From contig JANJTM010000038.1 of the NCBI GenBank assembly GCA_024711125.1, positions 1 to 64,000 of the forward strand: 64,000 bases of DNA, given 5' to 3'. The position numbers and the translations under genes were made by a program. This stretch comes from Rhodothermales bacterium. GTDB lineage: Bacteria; Bacteroidota; Rhodothermia; Rhodothermales; UBA10348. This document shows positions 30,113 to 32,946 of this stretch, in pieces; the stretch's first letter is position 1; every line of letters begins with the position of its first letter. Below the pieces are notes generated by a model that was not told the origin of the DNA, did not search any database, and was given only the letters and a program-made list of their open reading frames with translations.

Positions 30113-31825
30113 ATGAGTCGTATGCGACCGTTCTCCCTGGTCATTGCCCTCGCGCTATCCGGGCTCCCTGCCTCGGCGCAGGTCCTCACTCCGGGCCACC
30201 GCATCCCCGGCAGCCTCTCGGCCCTTTCGAAGGCCGCCTACACGCTGGACGTCGGCAAGGACGTCTACGTGTACGGTTTCGTCGACCAGCTTTCGGTCGA
30301 CGTCGTCGTCCGCATCCTCGCCCCGGACTCCACCGAGATCGCCTCGTTCGACAGTCCCGCCCGCGGGCCGGAGCCGTTCCAGTTCACCTCGAAGGTCGAA
30401 GGCACGTACACGATCGAGGTCCGGCCGTTCGAGGGCGCCGAGGGGGACTACGTCATGGTGCTGGTCGCCTCCGAACCCAAGGCGACCGATCCCGCCGCGC
30501 TCGTCGACCAGTTGATGACGCCCTTCACGGGCGACGACCGTCCAGGGGCGGTCATCTCCGTCGTGAAGGAGGGACGGGTCGTCCTGGCGAAGGGCTACGG
30601 GATGGCGAACCTGGCCTACGGCATCCCGATGACTCCGGAAACCGGCATGAGCATCGCCTCGGTTTCGAAGCATTTCACCGCCATGGCGCTCGTGCTTCTC
30701 GAGCAGGACGGCAGGCTGTCGCTCGACGATGACGTGCGCACCCATCTTCCCGAACTGAAGGATTTCGGCACGCCGGTCACGCTGCGCAACATGCTCAACC
30801 ACACCTCGGGCTACCGCGAGATCCTCAACTTCCTGCCCATGCAGGGTTCGATCGGAACCGACTTCATGCCGCGCGAGGAGATCTTCCGCGTGGTCCAGCG
30901 GCAGCCGGCGCTGCAGAATGCCCCGGGCTCCGAGTACAACTACAACAACACCACGTTCGCGCTGCTCGCGAGCGTCGTCGAGCGCGTGTCCGGTCAGCCG
31001 TTCGACGTCTTCCTGAGGGAGCGTGTCTTCGATCCGCTCGGCATGGAGCGGACCCGCGTCAAGATGCGCCAGGGGCAGGTCATCCCGGGCTCGTCGCAGG
31101 GCTACGAGGCGGCAAAGGATGGTACGTTCGACGCCGTCATGGACTTCGCATCGATCTACGGGGCCAGTTCCGTCAACTCCACGGCGCTCGACATGACGCG
31201 CTGGATGGCCAATTTCAGGGACGGCACGGTCGGCGGGCCCGAGGCCGTCGCGTCGCTCACGACGAAGGGCATCCTGACGAGCGGCGACACGCTGAACTAC
31301 GCGCTCGGCCTCACGGTGCGAAAGTGGCGCGGACGCACGCTCTTCACGCACACGGGGGGCGAAACCAGCCACCGCACCTGGTTCGGCTACTTCCCCGAGA
31401 TCGACGGAGGCGTCTTCTTCTCGTCGAACCACCCTTCCTTCTCGCTCGCGATCTGGACCGACATCGCCGGCGAGTTCTTCGCCGACCGCCTGGGGCCGGA
31501 CGCTCCTGTCGAAGCCACTCCCGAAGTCGCGGACACCACGTCCACGCCGCCCCTCACGGTAGAGCAGCTCGGCGCCTACGCCGGCCGGTACTACAACGAG
31601 GAACTCGAGACCCGGTACACGCTCTACGTGGAGGGCGGAAAGCTGATGGGCCGACATCGCCGTGTCGATCCCTTCCCCATCACGCACGAGAAGGGAGAGT
31701 CCTTCAAGGGCGGCGCCTGGTTCTTCTCGTCACTCACTTTCGACCGCGACCCGGCCGGCGCGGTGACCGGGTTCATGGCCGCAAACAGCCGCACCCGGGG
31801 CGTGTGGTTCCGCAAGATCGAGTGA
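30113..31825 (+). CDS. Secreted serine hydrolase, beta-lactamase/S12 family
   Basis: 570 residues. A signal peptide (to ASAQ, about residue 23) is followed by a small beta-rich N-terminal domain (about 25-125). The class C beta-lactamase/D-Ala-D-Ala peptidase-like domain follows, with S-V-S-K in SIASVSKHFTAM, the Y-x-N element in EYNYNNTTF and HTGGETSHR in place of KTG. A C-terminal lipocalin-like extension (about 480-570) is common in this family. It may cleave D-amino acid peptides, esters or beta-lactams in the periplasm; the true substrate is unknown. It is divergent from the kinase pair with a 108-base gap. Starts at 30113 or 30122 are equally possible. Confidence 0.85.
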   Translation: MSRMRPFSLVIALALSGLPASAQVLTPGHRIPGSLSALSKAAYTLDVGKDVYVYGFVDQLSVDVVVRILAPDSTEIASFDSPARGPEPFQFTSKVEGTYTIEVRPFEGAEGDYVMVLVASEPKATDPAALVDQLMTPFTGDDRPGAVISVVKEGRVVLAKGYGMANLAYGIPMTPETGMSIASVSKHFTAMALVLLEQDGRLSLDDDVRTHLPELKDFGTPVTLRNMLNHTSGYREILNFLPMQGSIGTDFMPREEIFRVVQRQPALQNAPGSEYNYNNTTFALLASVVERVSGQPFDVFLRERVFDPLGMERTRVKMRQGQVIPGSSQGYEAAKDGTFDAVMDFASIYGASSVNSTALDMTRWMANFRDGTVGGPEAVASLTTKGILTSGDTLNYALGLTVRKWRGRTLFTHTGGETSHRTWFGYFPEIDGGVFFSSNHPSFSLAIWTDIAGEFFADRLGPDAPVEATPEVADTTSTPPLTVEQLGAYAGRYYNEELETRYTLYVEGGKLMGRHRRVDPFPITHEKGESFKGGAWFFSSLTFDRDPAGAVTGFMAANSRTRGVWFRKIE

Positions 31826-31860
31826 CGGCCCGGTCCGCTGGTGCGCAATGCGGCGCGGGG

Positions 31861-31888
31861 TCGTGCGGGGTCGTGCGGGGTCGTGCGG
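31861..31888. repeat. Short tandem repeat, 10-base unit
   Basis: Two full copies of TCGTGCGGGG and a third truncated to TCGTGCGG follow one another, about 35 bases after the serine hydrolase stop. Too short and too regular for CRISPR; possibly slippage-prone. Confidence 0.8.
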
Positions 31889-31937
31889 AAATGGAATTTC
31901 GGCCGATTTGCGACATATTGACACCGAAAAGCGACCG

Positions 31938-31971
31938 AAAACATCGACAAATGCCCCTTTTTCGATGTTTT
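31938..31971. repeat. AT-rich hairpin
   Basis: AAAACATCGA (31938-31947) and TCGATGTTTT (31962-31971) pair perfectly around a 14-base loop. There is no long T run on the plus strand. On the minus strand the hairpin is followed by CGGTCGCTTTTC, so it could be a weak terminator for the carbonic anhydrase or a protein-binding site. Confidence 0.6.
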
Positions 31972-32023
31972 GACCCTGAAAACCGGGCAAATACGTAGGA
32001 AACAGGCCTGATTTTCCACGCCC

Positions 32024-32123
32024 GGGCACCTGCCGGTCGGGCCGACCCCCCGCGCCGAGGCACCTGCCGGCCGGCCCCCCCCCCGCGCCCGGCCACCCGC
32101 CGGTCGGGCCCACCCCCGGGCAC
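32024..32123. repeat. Three imperfect 33-34-base GC-rich tandem repeats
   Basis: The copies start near 32024, 32057 and 32090. Each reads approximately GGCACCTGCCGGTCGGGCC followed by a C-rich run. They lie just beyond the 3' end of the carbonic anhydrase gene. Confidence 0.7.
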
Positions 32124-32166
32124 GGGCACGCGGCAGACAGATCTTCGTCCGTCGTGAAAACAGGCC

Positions 32167-32946
32167 TCAGTCGAGCACTCCGGCAGCGACGACCCGGTCG
32201 CCCAGCGGTTGCACCGGCCGGTTCGACACGCCGGTGACCGCCGCGAACGCGTCGATCTGGCCTTTCGACAGGTCGATCGGCGCATCCATGACGAACCACT
32301 GCACGCCCTCGGAACACGGCGGCGTCGTCAGCGATCCCGAATAGGCCCGGTAGCCCCCTTCGGGCACCAGGTCGTCCGGGTCGATCGTCGCCTCGAGAGC
32401 GACGGTGACGCCCTCGACCAGCCCCGCGAGGCCCGCCACGGCGGGCGCCAGGACAGGGTTTTCCGGCCCCTCGGCCACGAGCACGCCGACTACGGCCAGC
32501 GCGCCGGACGAATCGGCGTGCACGAAATGGATCTCGCCGGGGTATGACTGCCCGGCCACGTGGTGTTCCGACGGGAAATGCACGTGGAACTGCTTCAACG
32601 CGTACGACCTGCCGTCGACCGTAATGCCCCCGCCTTCCGACCCGTCAAACTGCACGGTATGCCCGTTGAACAGGTAGCGCACGGGTACCGGGGCGTGGTC
32701 CGACTCCAGCGCCGGGGGCGCTCCCTCGGCCGCGACCGGCAGGTCGACGGGTGATTGGGCTCCCCCGATCGTGCAGTTTTCGAAGTCGGCCGCAAGGGCT
32801 CCCCATGTATCCGGTCCCCCCTCTCCCGCGTAGGTCCAGTGGGGAGTCGCTTCGTGCGTGGCGCTGTCCGCATGGCCTCGGCCACCCTTGCCGCACGCAG
32901 ACGTGAGGACGAGGAGGGCGGTGAGAGGCAGGGCGAGGCGCATCAT
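32167..32946 (-). CDS. Alpha-type carbonic anhydrase lipoprotein
   Basis: 259 residues. The N-terminus is a lipoprotein signal with lipobox LTSAC (Cys18), so the enzyme is exported and lipid-anchored. Zinc ligands of alpha carbonic anhydrases are present: H121 and H123 in KQFHVHFPSEH and H140 in GEIHFVHAD. HWTYAGEGGPDTW and QSPVDLP also match the family. It interconverts CO2 and bicarbonate in the periplasm or at the outer membrane. Start 32946 (Met-Met-Arg) begins the signal; the open frame further upstream is not coding. It lies 43 bases after the barrel-protein stop on the same strand and may be co-transcribed. Confidence 0.92.
   Translation of the reverse strand: MMRLALPLTALLVLTSACGKGGRGHADSATHEATPHWTYAGEGGPDTWGALAADFENCTIGGAQSPVDLPVAAEGAPPALESDHAPVPVRYLFNGHTVQFDGSEGGGITVDGRSYALKQFHVHFPSEHHVAGQSYPGEIHFVHADSSGALAVVGVLVAEGPENPVLAPAVAGLAGLVEGVTVALEATIDPDDLVPEGGYRAYSGSLTTPPCSEGVQWFVMDAPIDLSKGQIDAFAAVTGVSNRPVQPLGDRVVAAGVLD

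Follow-up and report, generated by a model that had tools for sequence, protein, structure and literature searches.

The AT-rich block between a serine hydrolase gene and a carbonic anhydrase gene belongs to a multicopy, non-coding repeat family, here called family A, that is scattered between genes and private to its source genome among the genomes searched. The window, a stretch of 64,000 nucleotides, corresponds to C49:1-64000 in a genome of 3.79 Mb (81 contigs, 99.3% complete). The family-A element is about 145 bp long and as a rule carries two 36-nt palindromes 52 nt apart. We favor the view that it is a REP/BIME-like element made of half-sites that a putative sequence-specific protein reads as duplex DNA, and we consider this view about evenly poised between right and wrong.

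The serine hydrolase and carbonic anhydrase genes are convergent. Between them, GC content falls to 44.5% over 31889-32016, as compared with 81% and 89% on the two sides of this block and 67.5% in the window. A first-pass annotation of the region had listed a 10-base tandem repeat, an AT-rich patch with a perfect 10-bp hairpin, three GC-rich repeats of 33-34 bases, and a pair of AAACAGGCCT copies, the second at the carbonic anhydrase stop codon. All of these are present. The tandem repeat, GCGGGGTCGT, has 3.4 copies of its 10-nt unit with 100% matches. The hairpin arms (31938-31951 and 31958-31971) are 14 nt long and 93% complementary, including the perfect 10-bp stem, and the inner hairpin sequence has one match in the window at ≤3 mismatches and none in 100 shuffles. 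The three GC-rich copies lie at 32016-32117 (TRF score 135). The window has exactly two copies of AAACAGGCCT, at 32000 and 32158, and the second touches the stop codon (ORF end at 32167). Carbonic anhydrase homologues in relatives are only 34-43% identical, and neither the hydrolase nor the TIM-barrel neighbor is present at any of the nine carbonic anhydrase loci taken from relatives (L180-L188, ≤3.8 kb each).

Table 1. Features of the intergenic region and its flanking genes, in window coordinates.
Feature	Coordinates	Strand	Basis
Serine hydrolase gene (Pfam Beta-lactamase PF00144), start approximate	30122..31825	+	
10-nt tandem repeat entering left element end (local satellite)	31855..31888	+	flank survey
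Family-A dispersed element	31883..32027	+	model R1, E 9.1e-28, 97.1 bits; alignment A1
Left terminal half-site GTGCGGAAATGGAATTTCGGCCG, family-B-arm-like	31883..31905	+	alignment A1 vs A2
Palindromic unit 1, CGACATATT-N18-AAAACATCG	31911..31946	+	pattern match, no mismatch
Hairpin of the first-pass annotation (unit 1 right arm + spacer + unit 2 left arm)	31938..31971	.	
16-nt spacer between units, GGCC-type centre (GCCC in window copy)	31947..31962	+	
Palindromic unit 2 (52-nt offset from unit 1)	31963..31998	+	17/18 arm positions
Right terminal half-site, GGCC centre, contains first AAACAGGCCT (32000-32009)	31999..32020	+	alignment A1
GC-rich local satellite, tandem units of 33-34 nt; search gave no dispersed copies	32019..32129	+	
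Second AAACAGGCCT at carbonic anhydrase stop, judged coincidental	32158..32167	+	
Alpha-type carbonic anhydrase gene (PF00194), start approximate	32167..32946	-	

The annotation had also taken the region for an inserted element or a dispersed repeat rather than ordinary spacer. It is indeed a dispersed repeat, neither lacking further copies nor standing as unique spacer conserved across relatives, but the repeat is the AT-rich block and not a GC-rich insert bounded by AAACAGGCCT. When the region was used as a DNA query against its own genome, 25 other places were found at E < 0.01, and almost all of them align to query positions 51-228, which cover the AT-rich block and its edge. The 36-nt palindrome CGAYRTWTT-N18-AAWAYRTCG has 79 matches in the genome at ≤2 mismatches, against none for the reversed pattern. 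Profile R1, built from 39 copies with the window copy (C49:31883-32027) among them, finds 43 genomic places above 60 bits, each place counted once. The 33-34-nt unit, which had been proposed for the same search, gave a best match of E 0.025 over 31 nt, and we rejected it as a dispersed repeat.

We dissected 41 of the 43 places; C68:7031 and C33:10276, both found by the model, are not among them. Exactly two units are listed in 36 of the 41 copies. The copies that list more are L010, L037, L038, L079, and L081; L010 and L081 each have a weak third unit that is out of register, and L038 and L079 (one 35-nt unit each) were excluded from alignment A1 and from the covariation counts. In some copies (L072, L073, and L075-L078), which form a subfamily, a different palindrome, CACGTTGAAACGTTTCAA, replaces the left half of the first unit. 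This subfamily is found in G000 at C19:8333, C68:7060, C69:11599, C80:52346, C81:153135, C33:340, and C33:10371, and its 18-mer, at ≤2 mismatches, appears only where the element profile also matches. Four copies, L014, L038, L045, and L048, sit close to the starts of contigs C78, C33, C71, and C23, respectively, at a distance of about 170-250 nt. Assembly breaks at such contig ends may hide further, more similar copies of family A.

Outside this genome the element is not found among the sequences covered. The motif, at ≤1 mismatch, is absent from 118 relatives, 26 of them from the same family. A scan for the exact palindrome across 84,980 species, one genome per species and with the source genome possibly excluded, gave a single match on a Flavobacteriales contig, which is about the chance level when reckoned by hand. 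Viral contigs held no motif matches, and a plasmid search in distant mode gave none. In the available portions of the literature on dispersed palindromic or tandem intergenic repeats, including REP, REPIN, BOX, and mycobacterial typing, the CGAYRTWTT motif does not appear.

Alignment of the copies explains what AAACAGGCCT is. The first-pass annotation had asked whether the pair might be a target duplication, and the alternative that follows is an inserted element with the GC-rich stretch as its insert. Two exact 10-mers do flank the GC-rich repeats. However, the first of them is part of an internal, GGCC-centered third palindrome, homologous across copies within the AT-rich element (A1); AAACAGGCCT cannot be a target duplication because this copy lies within the element. 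Nor is there a signal of target-site duplication in the 41 copies, where no offset beats permuted flanks at k = 3, 4, 5, 6, or 8. Shared 10-mers are also common: in 8 of the 41 copies an exact one recurs in the copy's own flanks of 200 nt, with the position varying. The pair is thus unremarkable. With the GC-rich unit not being dispersed, we rejected the insert bounded by AAACAGGCCT and regard it as extremely improbable.

The elements keep their geometry to a high degree. In-register units are spaced by 52 nt, or by 51 nt in two copies; 52 bp makes five turns of B-DNA at 10.4 bp per turn. A degenerate half-site stands at each element end (GTGCGGAANTGGNATTTCGGCC ... GGCCNNNTTTTCCANTNC), and these ends resemble the half-sites of a second family, B, described below. 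The order within the loop, from C-rich through an A-run to G-rich, gives the element an orientation, which we defined by the strand of the A-rich loop. An 88-nt core is identical in length in 39 of the 41 copies, and length changes are almost absent, whereas the sequences of those 39 cores differ by a mean distance of 0.318 (smallest, 0.114). Twelve of the 88 core columns are invariant in the 39 copies. Only 5.3% of the fixed-arm cells are off consensus; in the other columns, 28.2% of cells depart from the majority letter. Constraint of this kind is what recognition of half-sites on duplex DNA, in a fixed helical phase, would give. The two units within one copy are more alike than expected by chance (z 4.7); therefore, family A has subfamilies or undergoes homogenization.

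The palindromes might instead act in RNA, folding in transcripts as terminators or as stabilizers of mRNA 3′ ends, and the placing of family A lends some support to this. We called genes with a home-made caller whose training set was the window, and none of the 41 copies overlaps a called gene. Sixteen copies lie between tandem genes, 12 between convergent genes, and 6 between divergent genes; the remaining 7 are at contig edges and were excluded from these counts (n = 34). The 67 background gaps of ≥150 nt comprise 32 tandem, 4 convergent, and 31 divergent ones. Convergent gaps are therefore in excess among the copies (12/34 versus 4/67; Fisher p 0.0003), and divergent gaps are underrepresented (6/34 versus 31/67; p 0.005). 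Yet six copies do lie between divergent genes, and the distance from a copy to the end of a flanking gene often exceeds 100 nt. Rfam has no match at the locus, and over nine loci it reports one tRNA alone. This tRNA gene, at L007:1298-1369, is about 120 nt from one element copy, and no other was seen in the nine loci.

The sequence of the arms bears on the RNA explanation directly. If hairpins were under selection, the variable positions of one arm should track those of its partner. In family A, the 9-bp loop-centered, GGCC-centered, and outer pairings are Watson-Crick in 0.76-0.80 of cases versus 0.75-0.79 after row shuffling (z 0.35 to 0.97), and in family B 26 of 37 palindromes are paired at the variable position versus 25.6 expected. 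The terminal flanks pair slightly above shuffles, at a value reached by 1 of 2,000 shuffles. Predicted folds are stable, but this is true of both strands, which beat shuffles alike (mean z, -3.7 and -3.5). G-T mismatches outnumber A-C mismatches in two helices (37:5 and 27:6) and not in the third (11:19), the counts not being independent; the excess in two helices is as pairing in one-strand RNA would allow. Without covariation between arms in either family, and with both strands folding alike, selection for an RNA hairpin is not supported, and we think an RNA-level element unlikely.

We return to recognition on duplex DNA. The array can be described as a series of mirror-image half-sites, two 36-nt palindromes 52 bp apart plus a degenerate half-site at each end, which a putative sequence-specific protein, dimeric or oligomeric, would recognize on the duplex. 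Such recognition would select the half-sites and their 52-bp phasing, not base pairing between particular arms. The protein might be the enzyme that spread the element, a DNA-binding protein of the host that maintains it, or both in succession. Counting against this reading, the genes beside the copies include no recurrent family, the largest cluster having 4 of 253 neighboring proteins.

The same genome contains a sister family with the same frame. Family B has the arms GGAAGTGKAA/TTMCACTTCC, a GGCC center, a period of 51-52 nt, and a C-rich/A-run/G-rich linker. A de novo scan for tandem repeats found that lags of 51-52 recur: C30 and C10 have four such arrays in 400 kb, including one family-A copy, and the relative G009 has four in 200 kb; G013 and G028, scanned over 100 kb apiece, have none. 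At E ≤ 0.001, the family-B profile matches 4 of 60 genomes, namely the source genome and all three of genus g10. Arms in the g10 arrays are distinct, such as the AATAGGTTGAA/TTGAACCTAAT-like ones in G009. The family-B matches together with these arrays indicate, therefore, that two genera share a class of array in which frame and period are constant and the arms are exchanged. The family-A profile, at a laxer E of 0.1, matches 16 of 60 genomes, but the hits outside g1 and g10 are weak and cover short stretches, with a best E of 0.004. Two single arrays may be mentioned here. One, L164 (G009 C1:101544-101889), from a relative in a different genus, is a long array of 51-nt period with GGTTGCATA/GGAACCTC arms and repeats up to 98% alike. 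The other, L140 (G000 C30:27850-28050), has a 52-nt period and other arms, CTTCGATT...AATCGAAG, and is perhaps a third family in the source genome. Five family-B members (L128-L132; G000 C12, C35, C7, C55, and C49:135332) have near-identical right halves followed by a common GGCGCCCCACC, and this likeness in sequence suggests recent copying.

Sister families with different arms, like the several REP families of one genome, and signs of recent copying in family B are what purely selfish mobile DNA of a REP- or MITE-like type might leave behind. A transposase would act in trans, recognition would constrain the element during propagation only, and the host would gain nothing. Dispersal within a single genome and the possible, degenerate terminal inverted repeats fit this as well, and the fixed geometry could stem from selection during propagation rather than after insertion. 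The 41 copies have no target-site duplication, though, and a search with PF01797 for the RAYT-type transposase domain Y1_Tnp found none in the source genome, while 5 of 14 control genomes were positive. There are no near-identical family-A copies either, although a fragmented assembly may lose identical ones, and indels are almost absent despite the large divergence. We regard selfish propagation alone as possible but rather doubtful.

What made the region look composite recurs elsewhere, in a way that the first-pass annotation had not foreseen: short tandem repeats that are unrelated to the element, and specific to each locus, adjoin 21 of the 41 copies. We scanned flanks to 200 nt and excluded 10 of the 82 for having <60 nt of intergenic DNA; 25 of the remaining 72 contain such satellites. 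Among 112 other intergenic segments, only 6 have tandem repeats; 3 of these lie beside family-A copies, and another is itself an array of 52-nt period. This background replaced one of random segments (63/2,000 with tandem repeats), which were mostly coding. In terms of coverage, satellites make up 11-17% of intergenic bases within 200 nt of family A, versus 111 of 27,331 bases (0.4%) elsewhere, where the gaps just named for their family-A copies or 52-nt array, plus two further 52-nt-array gaps, were left out. As in the window, a ten-base repeat at C10:16755 (L050) enters the element end. Around family B, in comparable gaps, none of 29 flanks has a satellite (A versus B, p 7e-5); here the scan reached 300 nt and ignored periods of 49-54, and the loci surveyed are those found by the family-A model, minus 3 of the 20 (L119-L138) that have no family-B cluster.

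A palindromic array might promote local tandem duplication in its host gap and so give the locus its composite look. Satellite coverage is rather even to about 200 nt, without decay beside the element; no satellites were seen past 300 nt. Because this coverage stays level over those 200 nt, we can only infer a causal link between element and satellite. The gaps that host family A are long (median, 439 nt), and it may be that elements and satellites simply share permissive, expanded gaps, neither causing the other, which is compatible with any of the readings of the element itself. Family B in comparable gaps has no satellites, and tandem repeats are rare in other intergenic DNA, both of which count against this. 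We rate shared gaps as a serious contender that falls somewhat short of an even chance.

A broader proposal combines these observations. Clade-private, intergenic DNA-binding arrays in two genera may exchange their arms as sets while family A seeds minisatellites, the whole amounting to a new repeat type with its own, non-RAYT protein; we put this forward tentatively and would not expect it to hold in full. The constant frame in this proposal, a 52-bp phase with a GGCC center and a C-rich/A-run/G-rich linker, is offered just as cautiously. Little explanation exists for dispersed palindromic repeats that lack a RAYT. Family A keeps its geometry while its sequence diverges by a third, its sister families swap arms and keep the frame, and together they provide a natural test of upkeep as duplex-DNA binding sites. 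With satellites around A and none around B, the idea that a dispersed repeat can seed minisatellites becomes open to test.

Several known systems resemble family A in part. BOX and RUP of pneumococcus and the Correia-type MITEs are intergenic modules of about 100-200 bp that have terminal inverted repeats and are built internally from repeated modules. Family A has degenerate half-sites at its ends that pair slightly more than shuffles and may correspond to such inverted repeats; unlike these elements, it has no target duplication in 41 copies, its copies are divergent, and no known transposase partner was found. The MIRU/VNTR loci of mycobacteria consist of tandem units of roughly 50 nt across tens of intergenic loci, and family A, too, has units of about 50 nt at tens of intergenic loci. 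MIRU are not known to carry a dyad pattern of this kind, whereas family A has palindromic half-sites, alternating centers, and a nearly fixed number of two copies (36/41). We also rejected a CRISPR array, since the 16-nt spacer between the units is itself conserved across copies and not unique. A RAYT-driven REPIN is rejected as far as PF01797 goes, the domain being absent from the genome. In the available part of PMC3733652, CGTC-type REPs are tagged stem-loops with an 8-9-bp stem and a 4-5-nt loop, and REPs show a similar preference for tandem and convergent gaps. Compared by eye with that text, alignment A1 has no short stem-loop tagged with GTAG or CGTC. Its units differ further from REP, BIME, and REPIN in being 36 nt long, with 9-nt arms, an 18-nt middle, and a fixed 52-nt period, and in following each other in direct order rather than head to head. 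Like those elements, family A consists of short palindromic intergenic units in arrays with linkers, belongs to a genome with several families, has a high copy number, is lineage specific, and lies mostly between tandem and convergent genes. Its general kind is that of REP/BIME, but it falls outside their defining features.
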